Notes under the pieces: generated by a model
Databases searched by the model: none
Told to the model about the DNA's origin: nothing
The model's input: only the letters and a program-made list of their open reading frames with translations
Source of the DNA: Gemmatimonadota bacterium
GTDB lineage: Bacteria > Latescibacterota > UBA2968 > GCA-2709665
Length of the DNA stretch: 64,000 nt
Direction: 5' to 3'
NCBI GenBank assembly: GCA_028874335.1
Contig: JAPPJY010000017.1
Span: forward strand, 62,001-126,000
Made by a program: the position numbers and the translations under genes
Part shown: positions 26,756 through 60,790 of the stretch, piece by piece
Layout of the letters: each line of letters opens with the position of its first letter
Numbering within the stretch: position 1 is the stretch's first letter

Positions 26756-27421
26756 ATGAGCGCCCGGACCGCAGCGTTTGTGCTCATACTCGTATTCCTG
26801 GTCCGCCCGGAAACCGAGGCCCGGCCCAAAAGGGTGTTTCAGGTCCCCAACGCCAACGCGGCCCGGTGCCGCACCTGCCACCTGGACCGGGGAAGGACAA
26901 CGACCAGGCTGGACATCCCGCTTTCCGAGTCGACGCATGAAGCCGTAGACGAAGGCGACGAGATCTGCGCCAGTTGCCACACGTACACGGGCGGCGGGGG
27001 TCCACTGAACGCCTTCGGAGTGACGATAAAGAGCGGGTTTCTGTCCCAGGCCGGGTATTCCGGAAACGTGGTGTGGGGGCCAAGCCTGGCGCTGCTCGAC
27101 TCCGACCGGGACGGATTCACGAACGGCGTGGAACTCGGCGATCCGGCAGGCGCATGGCGGGTCGGCGATCCGGCGCCGGGACGGATCCTGTCGTTGAGCA
27201 ATCCCGGAGTCTTCAGCAGCGTTCCCGTGACTTCGCGGCACCGGTCCGACTTCAACGCGGACGGCAAGGTCGACTTTGCGGACTTTTCAAGCTTCGCCGC
27301 GGCATTCGGAAGGAGCCGGGGCGACCCGGAATTCAATCCGGTTTTCGACCTGAACGGAGACGACACCATCAACTTCCAGGACTTTGTCAGCTTCGCGGGG
27401 GACTTCGGCGCGGGCGAATGA
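26756..27421 (+). CDS. Exported protein with two CXXCH motifs, temptin-like domain and dockerin-like repeats
   Basis: 221 residues. The signal peptide (VLILVFLVRPETEA|RP) is followed by two CXXCH sites, C38-C41-H42 and C71-C74-H75, which would bind c-type heme. Then comes a temptin-like segment around 82-134 (LNAFG..., LALLDSDRDGFTNGVELGDP). Residues 163-218 carry two EF-like dockerin repeats (DFNADGKVDFADFSSF and DLNGDDTINFQDFVSF). The start directly follows the upstream stop. I infer a periplasmic or surface electron-transfer or docking protein. The heme assignment is not certain, because the cysteines could form disulfides or bind metal. Confidence 0.65.
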   Translation: MSARTAAFVLILVFLVRPETEARPKRVFQVPNANAARCRTCHLDRGRTTTRLDIPLSESTHEAVDEGDEICASCHTYTGGGGPLNAFGVTIKSGFLSQAGYSGNVVWGPSLALLDSDRDGFTNGVELGDPAGAWRVGDPAPGRILSLSNPGVFSSVPVTSRHRSDFNADGKVDFADFSSFAAAFGRSRGDPEFNPVFDLNGDDTINFQDFVSFAGDFGAGE

Positions 27422-34283: not shown

Positions 34284-37055
34284 ATGAAAGATCGACAATG
34301 GCGGTGTGTTCGCCTGTTGTTGGTTTCTGCGCTGATCATCGCCTTGCAATGGCCGGTTAACGCGCCTGCCGCCGGAACGTCGTTGTCTGAACTGGATGCC
34401 GTGTACGCAAGGGGCCTGAAAGCCCGTGACGTGCCGGCGGTGGTGGCGGCGGCGAAGGCGTTGGAACGGGCTCTTGTCGACCATCCGGACCACGCGGGAC
34501 TCGTTCTGAACCGGGTTGGCATGCTGTACCTGCGGGTGGGCAGAGCTCGGGACGCGCGCTCGGCATTTGAACGGGCGGTGGGATTCGACCCGAAGCTGGC
34601 CACGGCGCATTGCGGCCTCGGACGGGTGGCCCTGGAACTGGAAGGAGACCCCGAAGCGGCGTTGCCTCATCTGGAAGCAGCCCTGGTGGCCGATCCCACG
34701 TATACATGGACGCACACGTATCTGGCGCGGGCCCTGGCTCAGGTCGGGCGCCAGCTTCTTGTAGCCGGCGCCCCGGACAGTGCGCGCACGGCGTTTGAAC
34801 GGGCGGTTGGATTCAATCCGAAACAGACCACCGCGCATAGCGGCCTGGGCAGGCTGGCGCTCGAACAGGCGTCCGACCCGGAGGCGGCGCTGCCGCATCT
34901 GGAAGCCGCACTGAGCGCCGATTCCACCCATGCCGAAGCGCACTACCTGCTTGCCAGGGCCTACCAGGAAACCGGGCGCCCGGGGGCGAGGCAGGCCGCG
35001 GACCGGGCGCTTCAGTACAACTCCAGGTATGCGCCCGCCCATCTGCTGCTGGCCGAATCACACCGTGAGGAGGGAGACCTTCATGGCGCGATGGTCTACT
35101 TCGAAAAGTACCTGGAGCTGAAGCCCGCGGACCAGGAAGGGGCGCTGGCATTTGCCGGAGAGTTGCTGGAAAACGGAAGATTCAAAGAGGTCGAAACCCT
35201 CACGTCACTGATGTCCGACGACCTCGCGCTGCCGCTGCTGGCGCAGGCGCTGATGGCGCGGGGCGATTACGAAGGCGCCCTGCGGGGGTTCAAGGTTTAC
35301 GTCGAAAGTCTGGAACCGGAAGAACAGGCGCTTTACCGGGACATCTCGCTGGTGGGTCTGCCGCATGAAATCGATGCGTATCGCAACACCCCCCCCGAAA
35401 AGCGGGCCGCGTTTCTGCAGCGCTTCTGGCTCCGCCACGACCCGTTCAAGGCCTCACGGGGCGCGATGCGTCGCGCCGAGCACTATCGTCGGGTATGGTA
35501 CGCGAGGACAAATTTCGGAACGCTGAAGTGGCCCTGGGACCGCCGCGGCGAAGTGTACATCAGGTACGGGGAACCGGACTACCGCTCCTCCTCGATCCAG
35601 CCGAATCCAAAGATCCCGCCGGCGGTCGAACGTGTGCAGGACAATATGGCCTACCAGCTGTACGGCACTCAGGGCGTGGGCATCAGCTACGTAGGACCTG
35701 TCTTTCCCGTCCGAACCGATCTGGGATCCTTTCTGGAGCCCAGCGAGGACATCCGGCGCGACCTGCAGGCTGCTGTAATCGAGGAGCTCGATCTGGCCGT
35801 GTTTGCACCCGATCAGGCCGAACCGGGCGCCGATGGCAATCCCGCCGCGTCACCGCAGCAACTGATAGATCTCGAAGACTCTCCCATAGAGGCCGGCATC
35901 GATCTGGATCCCGAATTCGCGATCGGGCTGAGCGGATGGAAGCCGGTAACGACGGGGCACAACTGGGCGTCGGTGCCCTGGGAGGTCTGGGTATATGCGG
36001 GCGTGGGAAAGGGACTGGAAGTCGCCTTCACGGATGAACGGAACTCCGGCGTATACGACTATGCGCCAGTCCCCGGTGTAAGCAGCCAGGATCTCAAGAA
36101 CCTCGATGAAGACCCCCATGTGGGGCAGATGGCCTATGTGCGGCTCATGCAGCGGCTAACGGAACTGGCGCCTGCAACCCGTGTTGCGTCCGTGTCGCGC
36201 GAGGAGCCGGAGTACTTCAGCGTATCGGGATTCGAGGCGCTCGACTTCAGCTACGACGTGGTCACTTTCCGTGGCAAGAACGGCGGAACGGAAATCCAGG
36301 TCAACGTCGGCATTCCCATTGAGCATGTCGCGCTGCCCGGGGATACGGACGACGACGTGATGGTGAACCGGCGGGTCGCGCTGATGGACGTCCGGTACAC
36401 GAAGGTGCTGGCGCTGCAGCAGGACCTGGAGGTGCCCGTCTCGGGGCGGCGGCGTGACCGTGCCCTTCTGGACCGGGTGGATCTCCTGGATGTACTGCCG
36501 GGGGACTACGAACTGGCCCTGCAGGTGCAGCGGCACAACACGAATCGGCTACAGGCGTATTCGCAGAAGCTCGCGGTGGAAGATTACTCCGGTGAGGGTC
36601 TGAAGCTGAGCGATCTGTTCGTGGCGCGTCAGGTGACGGCCGTGATGCCCGGGTCCGACCCGAAGTTCGTCCGCGGCAAGTGGAACGTCACACCGCTGCC
36701 TTCGCATGTCTTCGACGCGGGGCAGCACGTGTTTGTCTTCTTCGAAATCTATAATCTCACGCCGGATGAATTCGGGGCGACGCGTTACGAGGTGGTTTAT
36801 GAGGTTTACAGCACCGATGAGAGGGGCACCAGCCTCTCACGCCTCTCGACAAGAGTCCTGGGGCGGTCGGAATCGGCTGTGACCGTACGCTACGAACAGA
36901 CCGGGTCCGAGGCGTCGGTATCGGACTACGTGGCGCTGGACATCGGAGAGACCGCCGCCGGGCGCCGCAGGGTCAGGATGACCGTAAAGGACATGAACAG
37001 CGGACAGCGGGCAACCAAGGAAGGCCGCTTCTGGGTCAGGGAAGCAACGCAATAA
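34284..37055 (+). CDS. GWxTD-like protein with N-terminal TPR repeats
   Basis: 923 residues. The signal sequence (LLLVSALIIALQWPVNAPA) is followed by TPR repeats through about residue 320. An 80-residue TPR unit is internally duplicated: two AFERAVGF[D/N]PK segments lie 233 bases apart and remain very similar at DNA level. Around residues 411-432 the sequence FGTLKWPWDRRGEVYIRYG, followed by EPD, matches the GWxTD family's DRGRIYIxYGEPD core, with the GWxTD signature itself altered to KWPWD. The C-terminal 400 residues are beta-rich. GWxTD proteins are exported and of unknown function in several Gram-negative phyla. It follows a terminator-like hairpin, so it may have its own promoter. Confidence 0.78.
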   Translation: MKDRQWRCVRLLLVSALIIALQWPVNAPAAGTSLSELDAVYARGLKARDVPAVVAAAKALERALVDHPDHAGLVLNRVGMLYLRVGRARDARSAFERAVGFDPKLATAHCGLGRVALELEGDPEAALPHLEAALVADPTYTWTHTYLARALAQVGRQLLVAGAPDSARTAFERAVGFNPKQTTAHSGLGRLALEQASDPEAALPHLEAALSADSTHAEAHYLLARAYQETGRPGARQAADRALQYNSRYAPAHLLLAESHREEGDLHGAMVYFEKYLELKPADQEGALAFAGELLENGRFKEVETLTSLMSDDLALPLLAQALMARGDYEGALRGFKVYVESLEPEEQALYRDISLVGLPHEIDAYRNTPPEKRAAFLQRFWLRHDPFKASRGAMRRAEHYRRVWYARTNFGTLKWPWDRRGEVYIRYGEPDYRSSSIQPNPKIPPAVERVQDNMAYQLYGTQGVGISYVGPVFPVRTDLGSFLEPSEDIRRDLQAAVIEELDLAVFAPDQAEPGADGNPAASPQQLIDLEDSPIEAGIDLDPEFAIGLSGWKPVTTGHNWASVPWEVWVYAGVGKGLEVAFTDERNSGVYDYAPVPGVSSQDLKNLDEDPHVGQMAYVRLMQRLTELAPATRVASVSREEPEYFSVSGFEALDFSYDVVTFRGKNGGTEIQVNVGIPIEHVALPGDTDDDVMVNRRVALMDVRYTKVLALQQDLEVPVSGRRRDRALLDRVDLLDVLPGDYELALQVQRHNTNRLQAYSQKLAVEDYSGEGLKLSDLFVARQVTAVMPGSDPKFVRGKWNVTPLPSHVFDAGQHVFVFFEIYNLTPDEFGATRYEVVYEVYSTDERGTSLSRLSTRVLGRSESAVTVRYEQTGSEASVSDYVALDIGETAAGRRRVRMTVKDMNSGQRATKEGRFWVREATQ

Positions 37056-37124
37056 TCGGAAATGATGTCCGGGGTGGCGGACCCGGGGGAGATCGTCTCC
37101 GATCAGAAGGAGGAAGACCGCGAG

Positions 37125-38000
37125 ATGGCCGACGATGTGATGGAAATGCTCGGCGAGGACGTCGTCCTGTGCGACGGCGGCATGATTCTGGAAGCCAGGT
37201 GGCGCGGGTACGACACGCCGGCGGCGATCGTGGAACATCCGGACGCCATCCGGCAGATCCACCGGGACTTCCTGAACGCCGGCTCCCAGGTGCTCGAAGC
37301 GGTGACCTGGTTTACGTCACGGTCCCAGTTGGATCGTCATTTCGGATGGGGCGGCCGGCTCGACGAGGTGAACCGGATGGGCGTGCAGCTTGCGAAAGAA
37401 GCGTCTTCCGGGACGGCGCCGGTGGGCGGATGCCTGGTCTCCACGCGGACCGGGTCCTGGGAGGGCGATCCGATATTCGATCCGGAAGACCCCTCTTCCA
37501 GGGACCGGGCGAAGGCGGAATGGGACGAACAGATCGCGATTCTGGTGGACGCGGGAGCGGATTTTCTCATTCCGGAGACGTTTCATCGCCTCGACGAGGT
37601 GCTGGTCTGCCTGGAGTGCTGCAATAAGACGAGCGTTCCGACCATGGTATTCCTGGGTATGAGCCGGACGACGGAAGACGGCGCCACCGCTGCCGAGTGC
37701 GCCCGCGTACTGGCCGGAGAGGGTGCCGATGTGGTGGGTCTGGTATGCAACGGAGCGCCCGAGGGGATGTTGAATCTCGTCACCGAGATGCGTCAGGCGG
37801 TGGATGTGCCCGTCGCGTGGCAGCCCAATGGGTTCGGTCCGGGCGGAAAGGACACCCGTGTACCCCTGGACGTGATGGCCGGCTGCGCGGCAAAGGCGAA
37901 GGCGGAAGGGATCAATCTCATCGGTGCATGCTGTGGGGCGGGCCCGAACGTGATCAGGGCGATGGCGCGGGCATTGGGACGCGCGCCCGAAGCCGCCTGA
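37125..38000 (+). CDS. Homocysteine S-methyltransferase family protein (module 1)
   Basis: 291 residues. The zinc ligands are intact: C208 in VVGLVCNGAP and C269-C270 in LIGACCGAGPNVIRAMARA. N-terminal VVLCDGGMILEARWRGYD places it with the copies at 4926, 6070 and 43642 rather than with 3471. The internal loop around 235-250 is about 13 residues shorter than in the 4926/6070 pair, so the substrate pocket probably differs. I chose ATG 37125 because AAGGAGG lies 11 bases upstream; an earlier in-frame ATG at 37062 has no such site. It heads a series with a TonB protein, a GH109-like Gfo protein and a DUF6785-type membrane protein. Confidence 0.88.
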   Translation: MADDVMEMLGEDVVLCDGGMILEARWRGYDTPAAIVEHPDAIRQIHRDFLNAGSQVLEAVTWFTSRSQLDRHFGWGGRLDEVNRMGVQLAKEASSGTAPVGGCLVSTRTGSWEGDPIFDPEDPSSRDRAKAEWDEQIAILVDAGADFLIPETFHRLDEVLVCLECCNKTSVPTMVFLGMSRTTEDGATAAECARVLAGEGADVVGLVCNGAPEGMLNLVTEMRQAVDVPVAWQPNGFGPGGKDTRVPLDVMAGCAAKAKAEGINLIGACCGAGPNVIRAMARALGRAPEAA

Positions 38001-38107
38001 GCCGGCGTTATCCGAACTGTCTCCTGTCGTTGGTGGATGGTCGCCGCGAACCATAAACGCGTGTTGTACCCAGGTACGCCGGCCGTGCAGGCAGCGTGGA
38101 GTGTACA

Positions 38108-38818
38108 ATGCCACAACAGCTGCCTCCCAGACCCTGGATTACCGGCAGGATTATCCGGACCAGACGTCCCGAAGCGGACTTAAAGGCGCAGTACCGGAAG
38201 GTCTTCCCCCTGTGCATCGGGATCTCGCTCGCCCTGCACGCGGCCGTTGCGTTCACCTTCCCGGCCTTCAGCCTCCGTACGCCAACCCCCGCAAGACATC
38301 CGATTTTCATCCAGGTAACAGAGGTGCCGGAGACCCGACAGGGCATCAGGCTGCCGATTCCCGTAAGGCCGGCCGTGCCCCTCGAAACGGATAGCCGCGA
38401 CCTGCTGCCCGAAGAGATATCCGTTGACGCGACCGCCGAACTCGAATTCGATGCGGTGCCCATACGCCTCACCGCGCCCCGGGACTCCCTGGCTTCGGCG
38501 CCCTTCGGGGACGAGGACGTGGATGGAGAAGTCGTCCTCCCCGCCCGGCTTGTGGAACGGAAGCCGAGGCTCCTCGAACAGGTGGAGCCGGCGTATCCGG
38601 AGGAAGCGCGGCGGGCCGGCCTGGAGGGCGTCGTCCTGATGGAATTCACCGTGGGAAAGGACGGCCGGGTCAAGGACAGCGCTGTTCTCAAGGGGCACGA
38701 GTTGTTTCACCAGGCTTCGCTCGATGCCCTCTCAGGTTTCCGATATCTCCCCGGGTACCAGAACCGGGAGGCCGTTGAAGTGCGTATGTATATCTACATC
38801 CGGTTTCAACTCGACTGA
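38108..38818 (+). CDS. TonB-family energy transducer
   Basis: 236 residues. A single N-terminal membrane span (VFPLCIGISLALHAAVAFTF) is preceded by basic residues. A proline-containing linker (PIPVRPAVPLETD) follows, then a TonB C-terminal domain (PRLLEQVEPAYPEEARRAGLEGVVLMEFTVGKDGRV ... GFRYLPGY). This domain contacts the TonB box of outer-membrane receptors. No exbB/exbD genes are nearby. The likely client in the window is the receptor at 27558, 7.5 kb upstream. A GTG at 38096 is a possible alternative start; the ATG at 38108 has GGAG in position. Confidence 0.88.
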   Translation: MPQQLPPRPWITGRIIRTRRPEADLKAQYRKVFPLCIGISLALHAAVAFTFPAFSLRTPTPARHPIFIQVTEVPETRQGIRLPIPVRPAVPLETDSRDLLPEEISVDATAELEFDAVPIRLTAPRDSLASAPFGDEDVDGEVVLPARLVERKPRLLEQVEPAYPEEARRAGLEGVVLMEFTVGKDGRVKDSAVLKGHELFHQASLDALSGFRYLPGYQNREAVEVRMYIYIRFQLD

Positions 38819-38837
38819 AGTATGCGGAGGGGCGTAC

Positions 38838-40034
38838 ATGGACGAAATTCGCATTGGGATCGCGGGACTCGGCAACCGCGGCCTTCACTGGATCCGTCTG
38901 CTGCAGAATATCCCGGGCTTTCGCATCGCTGCGATATACGATTGGATCGAACCGCTTCAGGAACGGGCCCTCGCCGAAATCTCGTATCGCGACGACGTGA
39001 CGGCGTTCGGCGACTGGGAGGATTTCCTCGCATACAGTCACATGGACGCTGTGGGCCTGGTGGTGCGGCAGCCGGAGGTCGGGCGCATGGCGGCGGAGGC
39101 CCTGGAAGCGGGCAAGCACGTGAACAGCGAGGTGCCGGGTGCGTACAGGATGGAGGAGTGCTGGCGCATCGTAACGAATGTGGAACGGACGGGGCTGGTC
39201 TACAGCCTGGCGGAGCAGACGCGGTTCTGGGGGTTCGTGGACGGATGGAAACGCCTCGTGGACGAAGGACGCCTGGGCAGGATCACCTATGCGGAAGGTC
39301 AGTACGTGGGGTATTACGGCACACACCAGTTCTTTCAGGACTACAGCACCGGGAAACAATATTCAATTGAGGAGTTGCCCGACCATCCCGAGGCCAGCCC
39401 CACGTTTCCCCACGAAACCCCGCCGATTATCGCTTCCTCCTACGATCTGAGCATTCTGTTGAAGATCCTGGACGATCGGGTGACGGAAGTCACGGCGATG
39501 AGCACGAAGCGGCCCAGCTATGCGCATCCTCAGATTCGAAAGCCGGATATCCAGGTGGCGCTGATGAAGACCGAAAAGGATACGCTGATTCGAATGCTGG
39601 ACGGGCACACGCAGCCTCGCCCGCACGGAGACCACCACTGGTGGCAGATGATTGGCACGAAGGGCAGCCTGGAGTGGCGGCGGTCGCGCCGTGAGATGCC
39701 GAAAGTCTGGTTCGCGGACGCGCAGATGAACGACTGGACGGACGTGGATTGGGGCTTCGAACGTACCGACGCGCCGCCGGAGGCGCGAGGAAGCGGCCAC
39801 GGCGACGCGGATTCCTACGTGCATATGCACTTTCGCGACGCGGTCCTCGAGGAGAAGCCGCTGGATTTCGACGTGTACAGGGCGATGGATACGGTTGCCG
39901 CGGCGGTTCGGGCCATTGACTCGATCGAGGCAGGGAGCCGGTTGATGCGGGTTCCCGATTTTCGCCCGAACCGGGACCGGGCGACAGGCGAGCTTCCGGC
40001 GGACCCGGGCGGCGTGGGGTTGCGCGTAGGGTAA
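38838..40034 (+). CDS. Gfo/Idh/MocA-family protein, GH109-like (module 1)
   Basis: 398 residues. The Rossmann start is RIGIAGLGNRGLHWIRLL. In place of EKP the protein has SEVPGAYRMEECWRIV, which corresponds to the EVP..T.EECW segment of GH109 NAD-dependent N-acetylhexosaminidases. Other conserved elements shared with the paralogues at 44655 and 1563 are PHGDHHWW followed by GT.G, then RGSGHGDAD and VPDFRP. The 44655 protein is very similar throughout. ATG 38838 follows GGAGGGG; the longer in-frame extension would overlap the TonB gene. The DUF6785-type gene starts 15 bases after the stop. Cytoplasmic and NAD(H)-binding; glycosidase versus oxidoreductase activity is undecided. Confidence 0.85.
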   Translation: MDEIRIGIAGLGNRGLHWIRLLQNIPGFRIAAIYDWIEPLQERALAEISYRDDVTAFGDWEDFLAYSHMDAVGLVVRQPEVGRMAAEALEAGKHVNSEVPGAYRMEECWRIVTNVERTGLVYSLAEQTRFWGFVDGWKRLVDEGRLGRITYAEGQYVGYYGTHQFFQDYSTGKQYSIEELPDHPEASPTFPHETPPIIASSYDLSILLKILDDRVTEVTAMSTKRPSYAHPQIRKPDIQVALMKTEKDTLIRMLDGHTQPRPHGDHHWWQMIGTKGSLEWRRSRREMPKVWFADAQMNDWTDVDWGFERTDAPPEARGSGHGDADSYVHMHFRDAVLEEKPLDFDVYRAMDTVAAAVRAIDSIEAGSRLMRVPDFRPNRDRATGELPADPGGVGLRVG

Positions 40035-40049
40035 TCAGATGGGGGATCC

Positions 40050-42053
40050 ATGGCCAACGCCGGAACGGCGGAAGCGCGGCAACAGCATCCCGTGCGAAAA
40101 GGCGTAACGACGCGCGCCGTCGTTTTCGGGCTCGGGCTTTCCGTAGCCGTCAATCTGCTCGCCAATACGATGCGTTACGTTCAGCACGGATCGTACATGG
40201 CCATCAGCCTGATCCCGATGGGCGACCTTCTTCTCTTTCTGGTGTCCATCCTGATCTGCGCGGCGCTTGCCCGCTGGTTCGGCCGCCGGTTCGTGCTGGC
40301 GCCCGCGGAGTGGATCACGATTTTCGGCATGGGCCTGATCAGCGCCATGGGCCCCACCTATGGGATCAGCGGGTATCTTGTGAGCCAGATGGTGGCTCCC
40401 TACTACTTCGCCACGCCGGAGAACAGGTGGTCGGAGTTCCTGCACCCGCATCTTCCCGGCTGGTTGATCTCAACGGACGAACAGCGGTCCATCACCATGT
40501 TCTTCGAAGGGCTCCCGAACGGGATGTCCATTCCCTGGCACGACTGGTGGGGGCCGCTGCTGTGGTGGTTCGTATTTGTCGCCGTCCTGGGTTTCGCCTG
40601 CGTCTGCGTGTCGGTGATTCTGCATCGCCAGTGGGCGGACCACGAAAAACTGGTCTATCCCGCGCTGACGCCGGTCCTGGAGATGGCGAACCGGAGCGGG
40701 ACAGGGGCGCGCGTCCTTCCGGAATTCATGAAGGGAAAGGCGTTCTGGGCGGGGTTCGGACTCACGTCGGGGATCTTCTGGCTGAATATGGTGCACTGGT
40801 TCTATCCCACCTTTCCGAGGGTGATGAACACCCGCATGAACTATGTCTGGGACCTCCTGCCCAAACAGTATCCTCCGTTCTGCATCTACCTGAGCGTCTT
40901 CGTCATCTGTTTTTCCTATTTCGCCAATCTTGAAGTACTCTTCAGCATCTGGTTCTTCGACATTCTCTATATGTTTGAAGCCGGCCTTCTGAATCGACTC
41001 GGCGTGGTGGCGACGTCCCCGCACTACGGTTCCGGCCCGTACAACCTCACGAGCTACAAGTTCCAGACGGCGGGCGCCTTCGCGGCGCTGGTGATCTGGT
41101 GGCTCTGGATCTCCCGGGGGCACCTGCGCGAGGTCTTCCGGAAGGCGTTCCGCCCCGGCGGTTCCGCCCTGGACGACAGCCGGGAGTGGATATCCTATCG
41201 TACGGCCGTTTTCGGGCTGGTCGTCTGCATCGTCTACATTGTGGCCTGGCTCGCGCGGATCGGCATTGAGCCGGGAATGATCCTGGTTTTGACGCCGGCC
41301 ATGTTCATCGCGTACGTGGGCGTGGCGAAGGTCGTCGCCGACTCGGGACTGGTATACGTCGATCCGCCCGCGGTGGCCTGGGACTATGCGCTGTTTGCGC
41401 TGGGCGGGGCGCACAGGCTGAACCCCTCGACGAACGCCGCCTCCAGCCTGCTGCCGTTCACGGTCAACCACCCCAGGAGTTTCGCGTTGCCTATGATCGC
41501 GCAGGTGAACCGCTTGGGCGATTTTCTCCCTGAAGGCAAGCGGCGTTTTTTCTGGGGAATCTTCGGGGCGTTCATGGTCGGTACGGTGGTTTCGACGCTC
41601 CATACTGTATGGCTGGCCTACACCATGGGCGGGTACAATTTTCAGCCGAACTGGCTGATTCTTCACGAAGGTGAATGGCACTACGGCCTTGCGGTGGACG
41701 CGCTGCGCAACCCCCGGCCGATCCTTGCGGTGGAATACTGGCTGTTTCTCGCTGGAGTCGTTATCATGACCGCGTTGAACGTCATGCGATTCCGGCTGCC
41801 CAGGTGGCGGCTGCACCCGGTAGGGTTCGCGCTTTCGGGCACGATATTCGCCAGGTTGGAGAGCCTGACGCTTCTGGTCGCGTGGCTGATCAAGTTCCTC
41901 ATGCTCAGGATCGGCGGCACGGCGTTTTACCGGCGATCGCTGCCCTTTTTCATCGGGATTCTGACGGCGTACATCATTGCGGTAATCGCGGGCACGGTGG
42001 TGGACGCCATCTGGTTTCCGAATTCGGGTCACAGGGTTCACAGCTGGCATTGA
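40050..42053 (+). CDS. Polytopic membrane protein, DUF6785/DUF6784 type (module 1)
   Basis: 667 residues with about twelve or more hydrophobic segments, e.g. VVFGLGLSVAVNLLANTM near 25-42 and FLVSILICAALA near 63. Conserved polar stretches shared with the paralogue at 47418 include GISGYLV..M..P.YFATPENRW, HRQWADHEKLVYPA and FTV.HPRSF. These I associate with the DUF6785/DUF6784 family, which looks like a secondary transporter related to oligopeptide transporters; no substrate is known. Translation is probably coupled to the GH109-like gene 15 bases upstream, suggesting import of that enzyme's substrate or export of its product. Confidence 0.75.
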   Translation: MANAGTAEARQQHPVRKGVTTRAVVFGLGLSVAVNLLANTMRYVQHGSYMAISLIPMGDLLLFLVSILICAALARWFGRRFVLAPAEWITIFGMGLISAMGPTYGISGYLVSQMVAPYYFATPENRWSEFLHPHLPGWLISTDEQRSITMFFEGLPNGMSIPWHDWWGPLLWWFVFVAVLGFACVCVSVILHRQWADHEKLVYPALTPVLEMANRSGTGARVLPEFMKGKAFWAGFGLTSGIFWLNMVHWFYPTFPRVMNTRMNYVWDLLPKQYPPFCIYLSVFVICFSYFANLEVLFSIWFFDILYMFEAGLLNRLGVVATSPHYGSGPYNLTSYKFQTAGAFAALVIWWLWISRGHLREVFRKAFRPGGSALDDSREWISYRTAVFGLVVCIVYIVAWLARIGIEPGMILVLTPAMFIAYVGVAKVVADSGLVYVDPPAVAWDYALFALGGAHRLNPSTNAASSLLPFTVNHPRSFALPMIAQVNRLGDFLPEGKRRFFWGIFGAFMVGTVVSTLHTVWLAYTMGGYNFQPNWLILHEGEWHYGLAVDALRNPRPILAVEYWLFLAGVVIMTALNVMRFRLPRWRLHPVGFALSGTIFARLESLTLLVAWLIKFLMLRIGGTAFYRRSLPFFIGILTAYIIAVIAGTVVDAIWFPNSGHRVHSWH

Positions 42054-42081
42054 TGGGCCTCTCCGCCCGACCCTTCACCGG

Positions 42082-42345
42082 GCTGTCAGCGATCAGCCGT
42101 CAGCTGTCAGCTAAAAGCGAAGAGCAAGATCAAGATCCGCCGCTCCCCACCGCCCAGACCTCTCTCCCCGGCCCTCTCTCCCGCGGGAGAGAGGGAGGAA
42201 AACCGGCCTCACACAGAGACACGAAGGCACGAAGGGACACAAAGAAAACCGGGACAGCGACAAGCCGGGCAACCACAAGGGTTGCCCCTACAATTGCAAC
42301 GACGGCGTTCCGAGGGCAGGATGCCCTCGATCCGGGGGATCGGGG
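42082..42345. repeat. Repeat cluster: B, half H, family F, half C and short D
   Basis: B units at 42082-42112, the CTCTCTCCCGCGGGAGAGAG hairpin near 42176, and family F (ACACAGAGACACGAAGGCACG) at 42208-42243. One C-end hairpin (GGGCAACC acaa GGGTTGCCC) follows at 42267-42287, and a D end (CGAGGGCAGGATGCCCTCG) at 42311-42329. Five families lie end to end in 260 bases, with no gene in 42054-42583. Confidence 0.7.
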
Positions 42346-42388
42346 AGACGAGAGGGGTGAGAGGACCGCGCCCCGCCCCACCACCTGG

Positions 42389-42514
42389 TGAGAAGGAAGC
42401 CGTGAGAGGGTAGAGATCGCATGCCGATTGAGAATTCTTCTCGTGCCGTAGGCAAGCAGCGATAACATACCGGGCGAGGATTTCTTCTACCGTCTTACCT
42501 CTTGCGTCTACCCG
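42389..42514. repeat. Interspersed repeat family A, copy 6
   Basis: The left arm is degraded (AGAAGGAAGCCGTGAGAGGG) and the right arm clear (TCTACCGTCTTACCTCTTGCG). The outer TGCC/GGCA hairpin is kept. Confidence 0.7.
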
Positions 42515-42583
42515 ACTTTAGGGAATGCAAATCAGCCACTTGTGTAGACTGTTGTGAGAAGATATCAGGAAAGGAGTCGCTTT

Positions 42584-43519
42584 ATGCCGGAGTCCATATT
42601 AGAGACGCTTGATGGTGGCTTCGTGCTGGCCGACGGGGGAAACGTGGAGGAATTGAGGCTCCGGGGATACTCGGCGCCATTCGTACTCGAAGACTTCCCG
42701 GACGCGGTGCGGCTGGTCCATCAGGATTTCTTCCGCGCCGGCGCCGGCGTGATCCGAACCCTGACGGGCCGGTGTACGCGAACCGGGCTTGGCGCACGGG
42801 AGAACGGAAGTGCGGCCGACCGGGTCGACGAGATGAACCGGACGGCCGTTGCGCTGGCGAAGGGTGCGGCAGGAGGGGAGGCGCTCGTGGCCGGAACACT
42901 GGCGCCAACGGGAGCCTTTCAGGCTGAAGACGCGGGTTGTGCGGACCGCGCCCGGACGGAGTGGGAGGAACAGGCCGTCATATTGGCGGACGCGGGTGTG
43001 GATCTGCTCGTCTGCGAGTCATTCGACCGGCTCGACGAGGCGCGCCTGGCCCTGGCTTGCTGCAGGAACACCGCCTTGCCGGTTGTGGTGTCGGTGGACG
43101 TCGCATTGCCCGAGGGAAGATTGAACAAACCGGCGCTTCGCGAGGATGAAGTGACCGCCGACGGCGTCGCGCCGGCCGAGTGCGCGCGCGTACTGGCAGG
43201 CGACGGCGCAGACGTCGTGGGCGCGGGCGGCATGCGTGAACCGGAGGACCTGTGGCCCGTGGTGCTGGAGATGCGGAACGCGGTGGACGCGCCGATCGCC
43301 TTTCTGCCGAATGGATATCGCACGTGCAGGGCGCACTGGGAGCACATGAGGGAAGGCATGCACGTCTACGGGATTGAAATGGGGCAGTACGCGTTGAAGG
43401 CGGTCGCCCACGATATCCGCTTCGTGGGCGGATCGGACGGCGTGGTGATCCGGCTCCTGCGTTCGATGGCGCAGGCGCTGGATTGCGAACGGATACACAT
43501 CGAACTCCGCCCGCGATAG
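42584..43519 (+). CDS. Degenerate homocysteine S-methyltransferase paralogue lacking zinc cysteines
   Basis: 311 residues, clearly homologous to its neighbour at 43642: LADGGNVEELRLRGYSAPF at the start, LVCESFDRLDEARLALACC in the middle and APAECARVLAGDGADVVG. All three zinc ligands are gone. The first cysteine (IVGLVC) is glycine 215 in VVGAGGM, and the CC pair (IGACCGAGPSHIR) reads VGGSDGVVIR, with S284-D285. The frame is uninterrupted and codon use is normal, so it is translated. It cannot work by the standard zinc-thiolate mechanism; a regulatory or binding role, or a different chemistry, is possible. AAAGGAG precedes ATG 42584. Confidence 0.8.
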   Translation: MPESILETLDGGFVLADGGNVEELRLRGYSAPFVLEDFPDAVRLVHQDFFRAGAGVIRTLTGRCTRTGLGARENGSAADRVDEMNRTAVALAKGAAGGEALVAGTLAPTGAFQAEDAGCADRARTEWEEQAVILADAGVDLLVCESFDRLDEARLALACCRNTALPVVVSVDVALPEGRLNKPALREDEVTADGVAPAECARVLAGDGADVVGAGGMREPEDLWPVVLEMRNAVDAPIAFLPNGYRTCRAHWEHMREGMHVYGIEMGQYALKAVAHDIRFVGGSDGVVIRLLRSMAQALDCERIHIELRPR

Positions 43520-43641
43520 CGGGCAACGAAAGGATTGGCGCCCGGCGTGCCGGGGATCGGGCAGGAGGAATACGGAAACCGATCGGCCGCGTTGGGTCGT
43601 ATATTGGCACCCAGGTATGATTTCAGTACAGGAGGGCCAGG

Positions 43642-44559
43642 ATGGGCATGGACATATTGAAGAGGCTGGATGAGGGCGTCGTTCTGAGCGACGGGGGAAT
43701 GATCATCGAGGCCAGGTGGCGCGGGTACGATACGCCGGCCATGATCCTGGAAGATCCTGATGCGCTGCGCCAGATCCACCAGGATTTCTTTCGGGCCGGA
43801 TCCCACGTGCTGCAGGCGCAGACCTGGTGGACCAGCCGGTCGCAACTCGAACGCCGCTACAAACCGGGCGACACACCGAGCGGTGAAGGCGCGCGTCTGG
43901 AGGAAATCTCCCGTACCGCAATCCGGCTGGCCATCGAGGCCTCCGGCGGCGAAGCCCTGGTCGCCGGCTGCCTGAACCAGACGGCAGCGGGGTCCTGGAC
44001 GGGGCCGTACATCTACCAGCCCGACAATGCCCGGGCGCGCGAGCGGGCGTGTGCGGAGTGGGACGAGCACATTTCCTGGATGGTGGACGCGGGCGCCGGG
44101 CTTCTCATACCGGAAACGTTCGCGCGGCTGGACGAAGCCCGGCTGTGCCTGTCGCGCTGCAAGAAAACCGACGTGCCCGCGATGGTGCTGATGGGCTCGA
44201 GCAGCCGGACGCACGACGGCGCCACGCCGGCGGAGTGCGCGAGGGTCCTGGCGGACGAGGGCGCGGATATCGTCGGCCTGGTCTGCTCCGGCGACTCGAT
44301 GACCATGTGGCCGGGGGTCCAGGCGATGCGGGAGGCGGTGGATATCCCCATCGCCTATCAGCCTCAGGGTTATCGCAATGCAGGCCCCAATAATTCAGTC
44401 ATTCGCGAGTCGATGATCGTCTCGGGCAGCGAGATGGCCCAATACGCGTTGAAGGCCAGGGCCGAGGGTATCAACTTCATCGGCGCGTGCTGCGGCGCGG
44501 GCCCGTCGCACATTCGGGCGATCGCGCAGGCGCTGGGCTGCGAGCGGAATCCGGTTTAA
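43642..44559 (+). CDS. Homocysteine S-methyltransferase family protein (module 2)
   Basis: 305 residues. Zinc ligands C215 (IVGLVCSGD) and C283-C284 (IGACCGAGPSHIRAIAQA) are present. VLSDGGMIIEARWRGYDTP is nearly the same as in the gene at 37125. It has an eight-residue insert at 74-84 (KPGDTPSGEG) and a long loop at 245-265 absent from that copy. It follows the zinc-less paralogue by 122 bases and precedes a GH109-like gene, giving the same order as the first module. AGGAGGGCC precedes the start. Confidence 0.88.
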   Translation: MGMDILKRLDEGVVLSDGGMIIEARWRGYDTPAMILEDPDALRQIHQDFFRAGSHVLQAQTWWTSRSQLERRYKPGDTPSGEGARLEEISRTAIRLAIEASGGEALVAGCLNQTAAGSWTGPYIYQPDNARARERACAEWDEHISWMVDAGAGLLIPETFARLDEARLCLSRCKKTDVPAMVLMGSSSRTHDGATPAECARVLADEGADIVGLVCSGDSMTMWPGVQAMREAVDIPIAYQPQGYRNAGPNNSVIRESMIVSGSEMAQYALKARAEGINFIGACCGAGPSHIRAIAQALGCERNPV

Positions 44560-44654
44560 TGCGGTTGCCAGGGGGCTCTTCATCCGCGCGGCAGCTTCTG
44601 CCGGCGTCGGCGCAGAAATGCCCCCGCGTCACTACAAAACGACGGAGGAATTCT

Positions 44655-45875
44655 ATGGATGAGATCAGAATAGGCGTTGCCGGGCTGGGCCACCGCGGGC
44701 TGCACTGGATCCGGCTGCTTCAGAGCGCCCCGGGTTACCGGATCACGGCCATCTACGACTGGATCGAGCCGCTCCAGGAGCGGGCGCTGGCGGAGATTGC
44801 CTATCGCGACGACGTGAAGGTGTTCAGCAACTACTACGATTTTCTGGCGTACGATGGGATGGACGCGGTGGGTCTGGTGGTAAGGCAGCTGGAGCAGGGA
44901 ACCATGGCCGCAGAGGCGCTTGAGGCGGGCAAGCACGTCAACGCCGAGGTGCCTGGGGCCCATACGATGGAGGAATGCTGGCGTATCGTCACGAACGTGG
45001 AGCGGACGGGGCTGGTGTACAGCCTGGCGGAGCAGACGCGGTTCTGGGGGTTCGTGGACGGCTGGAAGAAGCTGGTGGACGACGGGATGCTGGGAAAGAT
45101 CACGTACGCGGAAGGACAGTACCTGGGTTACTACGGCACCCATCAGTGGTTCCAGGATTACAATACCGGCAAGAATTACCCGGTTGAAGCGCTTGCCGAC
45201 CACCCGGATGCCGAACCCGCCAGTCCGCAATACCTGCCGTACATCATCTCCGCTTCGTACGATCTGAGCATATTGCTGAAGATCCTGGACGACCGCGTGA
45301 TCGAGGTAACGGCAATGAGCACCAGGCCGCCCAGCTATACGACGCCGGAGATGCTCAACGCGGATATTCAGGTGGCGCTGATGAAGACGGAGAACGACAC
45401 GCTGATCCGGATGCTGAACGGGTTCAACCAGCCCAGGCCGCACGGTGACCACCACTGGTGGCAGATGATCGGCACGAAGGGAAGCGTGGAGTGGCGGCGG
45501 TCCGGAAAGGAAAAGCCGAAACTGTGGCTGGCGGACACGCAGATGAACGACTGGATGGAGGTCGACTGGCAGTACCGGCGGACCGACGCGCCCCCGGAGG
45601 CGCGGGGAAGCGGCCACGGCGACGCCGACTACTACGTGCACATGTATTTCAGAGACGCCATCCTCAAGGGAGAGGCGCTCGAGTACGACGTGTACCGGGT
45701 GATGGACTCGATGGCCCCGGCGGTGCTGGCCGTGGATTCGATCGAGGAAGGCTCCAGGGTCGTCAGGGTCCCGGACTTCCGGCCCGGCGCGGATCGTCCC
45801 TCGGGACAGATGCCGGCGGATCTGGGCGGGATCGGTGGGCGCATTCACCTGACGAAGATGCCGGGGAGGCAGTGA
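44655..45875 (+). CDS. Gfo/Idh/MocA-family protein, GH109-like (module 2)
   Basis: 406 residues, a close paralogue of 38838. RIGVAGLGHRGLHWIRLL begins the Rossmann fold, AEVPGAHTMEECWRIV replaces EKP, and PHGDHHWWQMIGTKGS and RGSGHGDADYY are conserved. The C-terminal tail is about eight residues longer (GGRIHLTKMPGRQ). GGAGGAATT precedes ATG 44655. Its stop overlaps the next start by one base (TGATG), so the FG-GAP protein is coupled to it. The strict conservation between the two copies argues for the same chemistry on different substrates. Confidence 0.85.
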   Translation: MDEIRIGVAGLGHRGLHWIRLLQSAPGYRITAIYDWIEPLQERALAEIAYRDDVKVFSNYYDFLAYDGMDAVGLVVRQLEQGTMAAEALEAGKHVNAEVPGAHTMEECWRIVTNVERTGLVYSLAEQTRFWGFVDGWKKLVDDGMLGKITYAEGQYLGYYGTHQWFQDYNTGKNYPVEALADHPDAEPASPQYLPYIISASYDLSILLKILDDRVIEVTAMSTRPPSYTTPEMLNADIQVALMKTENDTLIRMLNGFNQPRPHGDHHWWQMIGTKGSVEWRRSGKEKPKLWLADTQMNDWMEVDWQYRRTDAPPEARGSGHGDADYYVHMYFRDAILKGEALEYDVYRVMDSMAPAVLAVDSIEEGSRVVRVPDFRPGADRPSGQMPADLGGIGGRIHLTKMPGRQ

Positions 45876-47209
45876 TGGCGCGTTTCGATTTACGGGCGTT
45901 CTGGCCGGGAATGGTCGCGGCCGTTGCCTGCGCCGTCGCCGTACCCGCCGCCGCCCAGGTCCCTCCCGAGATTCTGGCCCTCAGCCCCGATGTCAGGGGA
46001 TTGGGCGCCGATGCGGCCGCGAAATGGAGGTCCGTCGATCTGCGTGACGGCGAGGGCGGAACGCTCGCGGGGACCAATTCCTACGGCATACACGCGGCCG
46101 ATTTCGACCGGGACGGCGACCTGGACCTCGTCGTGGCCTTTCAATCGGGCGGGGAAAAGATCCCGGACGAGGACCGTGAGTACGGCACGGTCTATTGGCT
46201 GGAGAACCTGGCCGCCCCGCCGGATTCAGGATTGGCGTTTCGTATCCATCTGCTGGATGACCGGCAGGTCACGCCGAAAGACGCCGTTGTGGTACGTCGC
46301 ACTGCCGGAGGGAGCACGGCCGTCGTGGTCCCGTGCTATTTGTCGGGCGAGACCGTGATATACGAGACGTCCGATGGGGAGCGTTGGACAAAGCTCAGCC
46401 TCAGGTCGAAAGCGCTCGAGCTTCCGGTCAGGGCCGTGGTTGCGGACGTCGACGGAGACGACCTCGACGACATTGTAGTCACCTCCATCTCGGAGTCGGG
46501 CCGCAAAGTGGGGTGGTTTCGTCAGAACAGCAGCGAATCGGAGCCCTGGGAAGCAATGCCGATTCGCGTGAACCTGCCTCCCATCATCGGCGTGGACGCG
46601 GGCGACGTGGACCTGGACGGGGATTTGGACCTTGTGTGCGCCTCTGAGTACGCGTCCCGGCCGTTTCTCCTGATCAATACCGATGGAAAGGGGACCGACT
46701 GGAAGCGGGATTCCATCCGCGTGGAATCGCCCGATTCGGTGCGGCGATGGGTCGCGCGCTTTTCCGACAAACCCCTCTCCCAGGTCCACGCGCGATTTGC
46801 GGACCTCGACGGGGACGGGGACCTGGACTGTGTCGAGACCAGTCTCAGAAACGGGTATCTGGCATGGCGGGAGCGCCTGGGATCCGGGAAGGAGTGGAAA
46901 TTCCATAAGATTACCGGTGGCCTCGGCCACGCGTATTCCTTCGACATCGGAGACGTGGACAGGGACGGGCGATTGGATATCGTGGTGCCCTCCGAAGGGG
47001 GAGACGGGGTCTACGTATTCCGGAACGTCAGGGGAGATGGAACCATGTGGGAGGCGACGCGCCTCGGCGAAGGCGAGGGCCTCAACTGGCCGAATATCGT
47101 CCGTCTCGCGGATCTGGACGGTGACGGTTACGACGATGTCATGTCCACGGATTGGGGGACCAGGGCCGTCGTCTGGATCAATCCGTTAGCCCCAATTCGT
47201 AGAAAATAG
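45875..47209 (+). CDS. Secreted FG-GAP/VCBS-repeat protein
   Basis: 444 residues. Signal peptide MVAAVACAVAVPAAA|QVPPE. Calcium-loop repeats of the FG-GAP/VCBS type follow: DFDRDGDLDLVVAF, DVDGDDLDDIVVTS, DVDLDGDLDLVCAS, DLDGDGDLDCVETS, DVDRDGRLDIVVPS and DLDGDGYDDVMSTD, together giving a propeller. No ASPIC domain is present, unlike the protein at 12060. It would be exported and could bind glycans on the cell surface. It sits inside the module between the GH109-like gene and the DUF6785-type gene, and a terminator-like hairpin follows. Confidence 0.85.
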   Translation: MARFDLRAFWPGMVAAVACAVAVPAAAQVPPEILALSPDVRGLGADAAAKWRSVDLRDGEGGTLAGTNSYGIHAADFDRDGDLDLVVAFQSGGEKIPDEDREYGTVYWLENLAAPPDSGLAFRIHLLDDRQVTPKDAVVVRRTAGGSTAVVVPCYLSGETVIYETSDGERWTKLSLRSKALELPVRAVVADVDGDDLDDIVVTSISESGRKVGWFRQNSSESEPWEAMPIRVNLPPIIGVDAGDVDLDGDLDLVCASEYASRPFLLINTDGKGTDWKRDSIRVESPDSVRRWVARFSDKPLSQVHARFADLDGDGDLDCVETSLRNGYLAWRERLGSGKEWKFHKITGGLGHAYSFDIGDVDRDGRLDIVVPSEGGDGVYVFRNVRGDGTMWEATRLGEGEGLNWPNIVRLADLDGDGYDDVMSTDWGTRAVVWINPLAPIRRK

Positions 47210-47238
47210 CAACGCGGCGACGCGACGAAGACCACGTG

Positions 47239-47378
47239 AAACGGGGCGTAAAGGTCGTCCAAAAGGACGTTTTTTCCGTTCACGTCCAGTGACCTGGTGT
47301 ATCCTGGTAATCAGCAGTCTAATCGCCTTTATCAGCTTGCATATATTCGGTTTTACGTCCCCGAAAAATGACGAATCA
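47239..47378. repeat. Interspersed repeat family E, copy 2
   Basis: The inverted counterpart of 8133-8273. It carries the phrases ACCTGGTGTATCCTGGTAAT and GCATATATTCGGTTTTACGTC. Its hairpin region looks like a functional terminator. Confidence 0.75.
47256..47275 (+). terminator. Rho-independent terminator (inside repeat E)
   Basis: CGTCC, loop AAAA, GGACG, then TTTTTT: a compact stem with an uninterrupted T-run 47 bases after the FG-GAP stop. It is embedded in the mobile-looking repeat E. Confidence 0.65.
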
Positions 47379-47417
47379 AGGTCGGCTCCCGCAAAGGATG
47401 ACCATGAGTAACGTATC

Positions 47418-49397
47418 GTGAGAGGCGAGAAACAGCCGGAAGCGCGGGTGACGCTTCGGTCGATCGTAATCGGTCTGTGCATTGCGATGGCCATGAGCGT
47501 GCTGGCCTGTACGGCCCGTTACATCCAGAAGGGGTCGTACATGATGGTCGCCCAGATTCCGATGGGCGTGCTGCTGCTGTGCCTTTTGTCGATTCTGGGA
47601 TGCGCCTTGCTCGCCAGAAGGTTCGGGACCGCTTTCGTTCTGTCGCCGTCTGAATGGATCACGGTCTTCAGCATGGGGGTCATCAGCGCCATCGGGCCCA
47701 ACTACGGGGTCAGCGGGTACCTGGTGGGCATGATGGCGTCCCCGCACTATTTCGCGACGCCGGAGAACCGGTGGACCGAGTACCTCCACCCGCACCTGCC
47801 TGGATGGCTGATCCCGACGAACGATAGCCGGGCGATGTCCTGGTTCTATGAAGGGCTGCCGGGTCGAGCGTCGATTCCCTGGGACGTCTGGGGACTTCCG
47901 CTGATCTGGTGGCTCGCTTTTGTTTTTGTGCTGGGTTTTGCATGTATCTGTATTTCCGTTCTCCTGCACCGCCAGTGGGCCGACCATGAAAAGCTGGTGT
48001 ACCCGGCGCTGGCTCCGGTTCTGGAGATGGCATCGCGGGCCGGGTCCGGAGAGAGGTGGCTACCGGAGTTCATGAAGGGGAAGGTGTTCTGGGCCGGATT
48101 CGCGCTGACGTCGATCGTCTTCTGGTGGAACATGGTCGCCTGGTTCTACCCGATGGCCCCCAGCTTCCCCACGGCAACCGGTCGCTTCATCTGGGACCTC
48201 CTTCCGGAAGAGTATCCTCCGTTTTTCATCTTTCTCAGCACACCCGTCATCTGCTTTTCCTATTTCGCGAGCCTCGACGTGCTCTTCAGCATCTGGTTCT
48301 TCGACTTCGTGTACATGATCGAAGCGGGCGCGTTGAATCGCATAGGAATCGTCGCCACATCGCCGCACTACGGTGCAGGGCCCTATACGACCACGACCTA
48401 CAAATGGCAGGCGGCCGGAGCGTTCGTGTCGCTGGTTTTCTGGTGGATCTGGATCTCCCGGCACCACCTGCGCGAAGTCGTCCGGAGCGCACTTCACGCG
48501 CGCGGGTCTTCGCCCGGCGTCGGCCGGGAATTACTCTCCTATCGGGCAGCGCTGATCGGCCTTCTGGGCAGCTGCGTTTACATCGCGGCTTTTCTGGTGC
48601 GAATAGGGGTCGAAGCCGGGATGATCGCCCTGCTGATTCCGACGATGTTCATCGCCTATCTCTTCGTGGCCAAGGTCGTGGCCGATTCGGGCATCATCTA
48701 TATCCAGCCGCCCGCGTCCGCATGGGAACTCTCGGGCGCGCTGGTTGGCGGCGCGGGAGCCCTGAATGCGTCCACGCGCGCGACCTTCGGCATGCTGTCA
48801 TTCACCGTCAGCCATCCCAGGAGCTTCATCATGCCGCTGGTCGCGCAGATCAACCGCCTGGGCGATTTCGTCGGAAGGGACAAACGCCGGCTGTTCTGGG
48901 GCGTGTTCGCGGCATTTGTCGTGGGGGTGATCAGCTCGACGTTGTACACGATCTGGCTGGGATACCACGTGGGCGCCTACAATTTCCGACCCAACTGGCT
49001 GATCATCCACGAAGGCGAATGGCAGTACGGGATGACCGTAAACGAGATCCTGAACCCGGCGAGGATGCAGGCGATCGATTACTGGTTTCTGCTGATCGGC
49101 GCCGTGGCGATGGTCCTTGTGAATCTGATGCGCTACCGGTTCGCCAGGTGGCCGTTACACCCGATCGGGTTTGCGCTGTCCGGCATCCCGGCGGCGCGCC
49201 GCATGGGGTCCACGCTCCTGGTGGCATGGCTGGTGAAGCTGATCATGCTGAAGACGGGCGGGGTGGCGTTCTACCGGCGGTCGATGCCGTTTTTCCTGGG
49301 GATGCTCGTGGGATACATCCTCGCCGTGACGGCGGGGATGGTCGTGGACGCAATATGGTTTCCGAATCGGGGGCACGTCGTCCACAAATGGTATTGA
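47418..49397 (+). CDS. Polytopic membrane protein, DUF6785/DUF6784 type (module 2)
   Basis: 659 residues, a paralogue of the protein at 40050. Shared landmarks are GVSGYLVGMMASPHYFATPENRW, HRQWADHEKLVYPALAPVLEMA, VVADSGIIYIQPPA and FTVSHPRSFIMPLVAQINRLGDF. About twelve or more membrane spans; probable transporter. The start is a GTG that overlaps the stop of a five-codon reading frame (ATG 47404, TGA 47419-47421). AAAGGATG lies before that ATG, so ribosomes may load there and re-initiate at the GTG. Alternatively a frameshift has separated the original ATG. The terminator upstream may uncouple it from the rest of the module. Confidence 0.75.
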   Translation: MRGEKQPEARVTLRSIVIGLCIAMAMSVLACTARYIQKGSYMMVAQIPMGVLLLCLLSILGCALLARRFGTAFVLSPSEWITVFSMGVISAIGPNYGVSGYLVGMMASPHYFATPENRWTEYLHPHLPGWLIPTNDSRAMSWFYEGLPGRASIPWDVWGLPLIWWLAFVFVLGFACICISVLLHRQWADHEKLVYPALAPVLEMASRAGSGERWLPEFMKGKVFWAGFALTSIVFWWNMVAWFYPMAPSFPTATGRFIWDLLPEEYPPFFIFLSTPVICFSYFASLDVLFSIWFFDFVYMIEAGALNRIGIVATSPHYGAGPYTTTTYKWQAAGAFVSLVFWWIWISRHHLREVVRSALHARGSSPGVGRELLSYRAALIGLLGSCVYIAAFLVRIGVEAGMIALLIPTMFIAYLFVAKVVADSGIIYIQPPASAWELSGALVGGAGALNASTRATFGMLSFTVSHPRSFIMPLVAQINRLGDFVGRDKRRLFWGVFAAFVVGVISSTLYTIWLGYHVGAYNFRPNWLIIHEGEWQYGMTVNEILNPARMQAIDYWFLLIGAVAMVLVNLMRYRFARWPLHPIGFALSGIPAARRMGSTLLVAWLVKLIMLKTGGVAFYRRSMPFFLGMLVGYILAVTAGMVVDAIWFPNRGHVVHKWY

Positions 49398-49607: not shown

Positions 49608-50777
49608 GTGTTTGCGCCCGGTTTCATGGAAATTCGAGAGGTGCCCTTCGGATCCATGGGAGGGGTCTATGAGCAGGACGACGTCGATGCGGTCAACCGG
49701 CTGCTCGCTGGCGTTGCTGAGTCGGAAGGCACGTTCTTCCCGCTCCCCGAAGAGAATGACTTTCAGAATGCGTTCGCCGCGCACGAGGGCGCCCGAAAGG
49801 CGATAGCGGTCAACTCCTGCGGTACGGGCCTGGACTGCTGCATGATGGCGCTGGACGTCGGCCCGGGCGACGAGGTGATAACGACCCCGCTCACCTTTGT
49901 CTGCACGGCCGGTACCGCCATTGCCAGGGGCGCGCGGGTGGTGCTTGCCGACGTCGACCCGGTGAGTCTGAATCTGGACCCCCGGACGGTAAGGGAGAAG
50001 ATCACGGAGCGCACCCGGGCGATCATTCCGGTGCACTTTGCCGGCCTCGCCTGCGACGTGGACGCATTCGACCGGATTTCCGGGGAGACGGGCGTTCCGG
50101 TTATTTACGATGCGGCGCACGCGGTCGGTACCAGATTCCGGGGGGAGCCCGTCGGCGGACGGGGAAAGGCCTCGTGTTACAGTTTTCAGAGCAACAAGAA
50201 TATGACGTGTCTGGGGGAGGGGGGCGCGGTGACCACGGACGACGAGGATTTCGCGGAACAGGTCCGGCAGTTGAAGACATTCGGATACGTCTACGGGGGA
50301 AGCGGGACACGGGTGGTCCGGGTCGGGTTCAACTACCGGATGACCAAACCCCAATACGCGGTTGGGCTAACCCAGTTGGCCAAGATCGACCGTGTGATTC
50401 AGGACCGCCGCGACCGGATGGTCCGTCTCAACGCGCTGCTGGCCGACGTCGACGAGGTCATTCTGCCCGCCGGACACGGCCCCGATCACGGGAGCCATCT
50501 GCACGTGATCCGGCTGGACACCGATGCCGTGGAGTTCAACACGGACGCGTTCGTCGCTCACCTGAAAGATCGATATCAGGTGGGAACCGCAAAGCACTAC
50601 CCGCCGCTGTGGACCTGGGACGCCCTTCAGGAACTCGGGTACAACGGCGACGGATGTCCGGTCGCGGCCAGGGTCTGCGAACAGGTCGTGAGTACGCCGG
50701 TGTTCCCGGGTACGACCGATGAGGATCTCGAATATATCGCCTGGGCGATCAAGCAGACGATTTCGGATTTGGGCTAG
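49608..50777 (+). CDS. DegT/DnrJ/EryC1/StrS-family PLP aminotransferase
   Basis: About 389 residues. The PLP-binding lysine is K197 in SFQSNKNMTCLGEGGAV, the usual SF...K..T.GEGG site of the family, and D168 in IYDAAHAVG pairs with the cofactor nitrogen. The family makes amino sugars by transamination of nucleotide-linked keto sugars, or acts on related cyclitols. Start choice is uncertain: GTG 49608 follows AGAGGG closely, and ATG 49626 (MEIREVPFG) is equally consistent with family length. Next on the strand is a Gfo/Idh/MocA gene, an association common in amino-sugar synthesis (oxidation then transamination). The nucleotide sugar is unknown. Confidence 0.9.
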   Translation: MFAPGFMEIREVPFGSMGGVYEQDDVDAVNRLLAGVAESEGTFFPLPEENDFQNAFAAHEGARKAIAVNSCGTGLDCCMMALDVGPGDEVITTPLTFVCTAGTAIARGARVVLADVDPVSLNLDPRTVREKITERTRAIIPVHFAGLACDVDAFDRISGETGVPVIYDAAHAVGTRFRGEPVGGRGKASCYSFQSNKNMTCLGEGGAVTTDDEDFAEQVRQLKTFGYVYGGSGTRVVRVGFNYRMTKPQYAVGLTQLAKIDRVIQDRRDRMVRLNALLADVDEVILPAGHGPDHGSHLHVIRLDTDAVEFNTDAFVAHLKDRYQVGTAKHYPPLWTWDALQELGYNGDGCPVAARVCEQVVSTPVFPGTTDEDLEYIAWAIKQTISDLG

Positions 50778-50788
50778 TACCAGAATCC

Positions 50789-50893
50789 GGGCGCCCACAA
50801 GGGACGCCCCTACAAATGCATCGTCGGTGCGGAACCCGGAGAGTTCAATTCGTGGATGTTTCGTATTGTAGGGGCGTCCCTTGTGGGCGCCCG
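50789..50893. repeat. Interspersed repeat family C, full copy
   Basis: The terminal inverted repeats CGGGCGCCCACAAGGGACGC... and ...GCGTCCCTTGTGGGCGCCCG are 27 bp and perfect, around a 50-base core that shares AGTTCAATTCGTGGA with the copies at 4509 and 4732. It fills nearly all of the gap between the aminotransferase and the next gene. Confidence 0.8.
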
Positions 50894-50915
50894 TAATAAA
50901 TGCCTGGGAGGGATG

Positions 50916-52000: not shown

Positions 52001-52154
52001 CGCAGAAGCCGAGCCTGTTCCATGAGCCTGTCGAAGGGTCGAACAGCAGGCGACGGCTGATGCGGTGGGGGGATGTCAATGCTCTTTGTGCAGAAACACC
52101 AGCGTTGGATCCTCGACCCGTAACGGTCTCGTCGCCACGCCACCAGGAATGCCC

Positions 52155-60780: not shown

Positions 60781-60790
60781 TCAGGGACCT

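Follow-up and report, generated by a model that had tools for sequence, protein, structure and literature searches.

A genuine, narrowly distributed operon of homocysteine S-methyltransferase (HMT), GH109-like Gfo/Idh/MocA and DUF6785 genes was found in Latescibacterota, which are uncultured aquatic bacteria. It has one unexpected feature, an HMT that has lost its zinc ligands, and the GH109-like proteins offer a hint as to mechanism, having lost the leaving-group acid. The linkage of these genes is real and is restricted to part of one phylum. Since the gene run is conserved and the zinc-less HMT is kept by selection, a real pathway probably underlies it. Tentatively, we read the block as a conserved catabolic operon for a glycoconjugate in some Latescibacterota, in which HMT would salvage or remove a methyl group.

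The operon lies in a 64-kb stretch of DNA (the window; G000:C19:62001-126000) from a 5.43-Mb Candidatus Latescibacterota genome, in which genes were called by codon usage and families were assigned with Pfam. The source genome (G000) was compared with three genomes of the same genus (G001 to G003), one from another genus within the family (G004), and a Lake Baikal genome from another family (G021). Between 33 and 60 kb, every gene of the window is on the plus strand and gaps are mostly short. Downstream of a gene for a TPR protein (34383-37055), which also adjoins the block in G001 to G004, are genes for an HMT with an intact zinc Cys triad (37062-38000), a TonB C-terminal domain (TonB_C) protein with one N-terminal transmembrane segment (38108-38818), GH109-like copy 1 (38838-40034), a polytopic DUF6785+DUF6784 membrane protein (copy 1; 40050-42053), the zinc-less HMT paralogue (42584-43519), and its tandem partner with the triad intact (43642-44559). 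These are followed by GH109-like copy 2 (44655-45875), an exported FG-GAP repeat protein with a signal peptide, whose gene overlaps the stop codon of copy 2 (45875-47209), and DUF6785+DUF6784 copy 2 (47418-49397). The same run continues with a DegT/DnrJ/EryC1 aminotransferase gene (49608-50777; also in L024, L026, and L028), a Gfo/Idh/MocA dehydrogenase gene whose product has the EKP lysine (50856-51911), and a member of a GATase-like and NodB/Agd3-like deacetylase family (52149-53969). Near the start of the window, also on the plus strand, are a third GH109-like gene, about 40% identical (1563-2765), and three more HMT genes with intact zinc triads (3471, 4941, and 6085; 3471-6984).

The gene order, families, and paralogue counts given in an earlier sequence-only reading were confirmed by these gene calls and Pfam assignments. 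That reading described two runs of the same layout; the sixth HMT gene, at 42584, is located between them. Each run does contain the accessory envelope gene ascribed to it, but its position differs, with TonB before the GH109-like gene and FG-GAP after it.

The set TonB, GH109-like, DUF6785, HMT, HMT, GH109-like, FG-GAP showed conserved synteny across five genomes from the same family (G000 to G004). The order in G001 to G004 was TPR, TonB, GH109-like, DUF6785, zinc-less HMT, intact HMT, GH109-like, and FG-GAP. The second DUF6785 gene and DegT come next in the same-genus genomes, and the G004 contig stops before them. Core intergenic gaps in G004 (L058/L091) were 29 to 184 bp. Synteny was partial in the Lake Baikal genome (G021; L061/L094), where the DUF6785 and GH109-like genes are followed directly by a beta-propeller-like gene and then by the zinc-less HMT and the intact one. 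The sister family f2 had few or no HMTs of the block's type. In G001, the block's intact HMT reads as two overlapping open reading frames (L026:9697-10613), which could be a genuine break such as a frameshift or an artifact of assembly. Identified by its zinc-less HMT, the block was present in 6 of 64 Latescibacterota genomes, and among the phyla compared, HMT linkage of GH109-like genes was seen only inside Latescibacterota. The synteny across G000 to G004, and in part in G021, supports the earlier proposal that the three families are conserved as a linked set, and the block is not accidental.

Named kin of the GH109-like gene with the same neighbors were Candidatus Latescibacterota metagenome-assembled genomes (RHO1_bin_28, RHO3_bin_7, 277c_44, and Plut_88899), some deposited as Gemmatimonadota, and a Lake Baikal metagenome-assembled genome. 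By our reading of the isolate names, several of the Latescibacterota genomes are sponge derived. A paper on sponge Latescibacterota (PMC12993501) makes no mention of GH109, homocysteine, or betaine. No relatives were found in the viral contigs searched.

Trees, built by a quick method with SH-aLRT support only, gave different histories for the repeated genes. Copies 1 and 2 were 75% identical for the GH109-like proteins and 62% identical for DUF6785, and both copies of each family formed separate orthologous groups across relatives, so both gene families underwent early duplication. Zinc-less HMTs formed one group and intact HMTs another, each including the Baikal genome; the duplication that gave rise to them is therefore older than the divergence of the two bacterial families. 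HMT 37062 grouped with L095 and L090 and was not sister to 43642. It was absent from the block in G001, G002, and G004 (L026, L028, and L058) and present in G000 and G003, and it is a later, lineage-specific insertion between the TPR and TonB genes. Thus, the HMT-first order described for both runs is not general, and duplication of the whole HMT, GH109-like, and DUF6785 unit was rejected because 37062 groups with L095 and L090. When the trees were compared by module, as had been suggested, the GH109-like and DUF6785 paralogues had codiverged and the HMTs at 37062 and 43642 had not. Since HMT 37062 belongs to a separate subgroup and is found in the block in G000 and G003 alone, the repeated triple module reflects duplication in one half and coincidence in the other.

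All six HMTs scored above the PF02574 cutoff (103 to 140 bits versus 22). Five of the six share the fold and the zinc and homocysteine residues of BHMT, MmuM, and the MetH N-domain, with equivalents of BHMT D26, E159, C217, C299, and C300 present. In the sixth (42584-43519), the positions of the zinc ligands C217, C299, and C300 are occupied by G, S, and D (G, G, and E in the Baikal copy), and the E159 and D26 equivalents are mostly retained. The reading frame is open in all six genomes in which this gene was found, which are exactly those carrying the block, and the gene always adjoins an intact or recently broken HMT. Its dN/dS was 0.11 to 0.22, versus about 0.10 to 0.12 for the intact neighbor (five genomes), indicating purifying selection. 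These values and the open frame led us to reject a decaying pseudogene. The simplest reading is that the zinc-less HMT is a conserved pseudoenzyme with a putative partner function. Together with the intact HMT it would constitute a methyltransferase pseudoenzyme pair, and no report of such a pair was found in the literature searched.

The window HMTs differ from BHMT in the deletion of residues 40 to 44, including Trp44, and in the replacement of Tyr160 by Thr. Trp44 and Tyr160 are donor-site residues in the BHMT structure, and their absence led us to reject a glycine betaine utilization operon. Known enzymes of the HMT family use onium donors or methylfolate or cobalamin and not sugar ethers.

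GH109 enzymes ranked first in a profile search of solved structures with the GH109-like proteins. The closest solved kin, the GH109 alpha-N-acetylgalactosaminidases (6T2B and 2IXA), likewise lack the EKP lysine, but they are very distant in sequence, and the Pfam GH109_C model gave at most a subthreshold match (19.1 bits versus a cutoff of 27 for the 44487 open reading frame; none for the other copies). In GH109, His404 serves as the C3 acid/base, Tyr226 as the C2 base, and His259 as the acid/base for the glycosidic bond (PMC10755693); the numbering was verified by counting residues in the printed alignment of 6T2B, whose chain numbers differ by 25. Across 58 alignment rows, in which some genes are represented redundantly, the Tyr226 equivalent was Tyr in all 58, the His404 equivalent (in a GGHGG loop) was His in 57 with one gap, and the His259 equivalent was His in 32. 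At the His259 position, every copy of the 38838/44655 type and the Baikal copy L061:13388 have Tyr; another copy from Baikal has Phe, and the 1563 type has Thr. Because of the redundant rows and because the losses probably represent only two evolutionary events, the correlation of His259 loss with HMT linkage is suggestive and not statistical. No signal peptide or transmembrane segment was seen when the block's enzymes were subjected to such prediction. Glycosidic cleavage, as envisaged in the sequence-only reading, is doubtful because the leaving-group acid/base is Tyr in the module copies. Judged by these residues, the proteins are GH109-like and should probably not be classed as GH109 glycosidases.

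Elsewhere, GH109-like genes mostly had neither HMT nor DUF6785 nearby. Outside this lineage they pair with a gene for an Agd3/NodB-like carbohydrate deacetylase instead; relatives of the window gene 52149-53969 often adjoin them in Chloroflexota, Gemmatimonadota, Zixibacteria, Microlunatus, and other Latescibacterota. The model of one homologue, L075 (pLDDT, 85), folds like carbohydrate deacetylase Agd3 and NodB enzymes and matched Agd3 (6NWZ) with a Foldseek E value of 4.9e-12, although L075 is a distant homologue, about 23% identical to the window protein. The presence of a deacetylase neighbor in several phyla suggests that the GH109-like family ancestrally acted on substrates of the N-acetylated sugar class.

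A transport, cleavage, and methyl-transfer pathway for a methylated compound, as first suggested for this locus, is possible. In a catabolic operon, the exported FG-GAP and TonB proteins would help in uptake of the glycoconjugate, and DUF6785 would carry it across the inner membrane. Following the GH109 mechanism, cytoplasmic GH109-like enzymes would use bound NAD to oxidize C3 of the sugar and would remove the proton at C2. Lacking the leaving-group acid, they may act on a substrate with a good leaving group, or they may be redox enzymes, epimerases, or lyases; the loss would be in keeping with a substrate whose leaving group can depart without protonation. The intact HMT would transfer a methyl group to homocysteine, most plausibly from an onium group, and the zinc-less HMT may be a retained partner or regulatory subunit. 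The most specific form of this proposal, that an active HMT, its zinc-less partner, and a His259-less GH109-like redox or elimination enzyme remove a methylated group of the onium type from a glycoconjugate that has been imported, is decidedly unlikely.

The adjacent DegT and EKP-type Gfo genes (49608 and 50856) could indicate biosynthesis instead. The cluster would then build or remodel a surface amino sugar glycan and would not serve import and catabolism: DegT and the Gfo dehydrogenase would add an amino group, deacetylases would trim the product, the GH109-like protein would act as an oxidoreductase or epimerase, and HMT would regenerate methionine for methylation. Deacetylase-like genes are indeed part of the run. 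However, no glycosyltransferase, flippase, or NDP-sugar gene was seen in it, TonB and FG-GAP are a better match for uptake, and in most other phyla GH109-like genes adjoin deacetylases without DegT. We consider a role in surface glycan synthesis unlikely.

It is similarly improbable that the HMTs serve sulfur metabolism or methionine salvage in general, have no connection with the sugar enzymes, and simply happen to lie in the operon. Such a role would agree with their best NCBIfam resemblance, which is to the HMT domain of bifunctional HMT/MTHFR at a score far below the cutoff, and with the unrelated genes that adjoin other HMT copies. Six copies in a 64-kb window, one of them zinc-less yet conserved, are nevertheless excessive for salvage.

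The DUF6785 proteins are predicted to be transporters from their hydrophobic helices and a weak resemblance to the OPT oligopeptide transporters. The window genes scored above the cutoffs for PF20581 (322 to 342 bits) and PF20580 (61 to 72 bits), and the hydrophobic helices are clear, making the proteins polytopic. The OPT model (PF03169) matched several DUF6785 proteins weakly, with E values of about 1e-4 per genome and below the curated cutoff; the matching proteins L132, L133, L136, and L137 were verified as DUF6785. Comparison of the two profiles aligned 196 columns, with an hhalign probability of 10 to 14%, and a local alignment was seen around R-x-W...E-R-L-x-F-P. An AF2 model from a seven-row alignment had a pLDDT of 36, PDB sequence searches with DUF6785 gave no relatives, and no paper naming DUF6785 was found in the literature searched. 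DUF6785 genes are often located beside TPR, Gfo, or large exported protein genes.

The source genome has 22 DUF6785 genes, a number at which a gene picked at random would have one within 5 kb about 5% of the time. Co-occurrence within this distance, which had been proposed as a check, was observed at 4 of 6 independent loci of the HMT subclade (binomial, about 1e-4, from a small sample of loci that we grouped ourselves). At the exceptions, 4941/6085 and a copy in G005, there is no DUF6785 gene nearby; such loci, lacking DUF6785 or GH109-like neighbors, count against the catabolic reading, as does the split reading of the intact HMT in G001. One DUF6785 subclade (12 rows; support, 99) has members in three different gene contexts (the block, L090, and L092) that lie close to HMTs of a single subclade, and no HMT is near the closest kin outside this DUF6785 subclade (L034, L035, L122, and L125). 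A coincidental neighborhood, in which three families that are each abundant were merely inherited as a block, is quite unlikely: it would draw on the DUF6785 copy number (class relatives have 4 to over 50 candidates, and most of the class genomes searched have at least 20 copies), on the GH109-like genes elsewhere that mostly have neither HMT nor DUF6785, and on the insertion of 37062, but linkage of the HMT pair, DUF6785, and GH109-like genes spans two families amid rearrangement elsewhere, which refutes its strong form, and the four linked loci also argue against it.

DUF6785 ranks among the families with the greatest expansion in these bacteria. The operon gives it a testable biochemical context, and a methyl donor, if found, would reveal methylated compounds taken up by such symbionts. 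Other genes were also noted in the window. Oligopeptide-type ABC transporter genes (SBP_bac_5, two permeases, and two ATPases; 13778-22198) are broken up by a rhamnogalacturonan lyase-like gene (18661-20988) on the opposite strand. A small protein encoded at 26756-27421 has Temptin C-terminal, dockerin/EF-hand, and weak cytochrome-like matches. The minus strand carries amidohydrolase, AraD1/GguC family, and heparinase II/III-like genes (59935-63976) that probably form a separate set for sugar acid catabolism.
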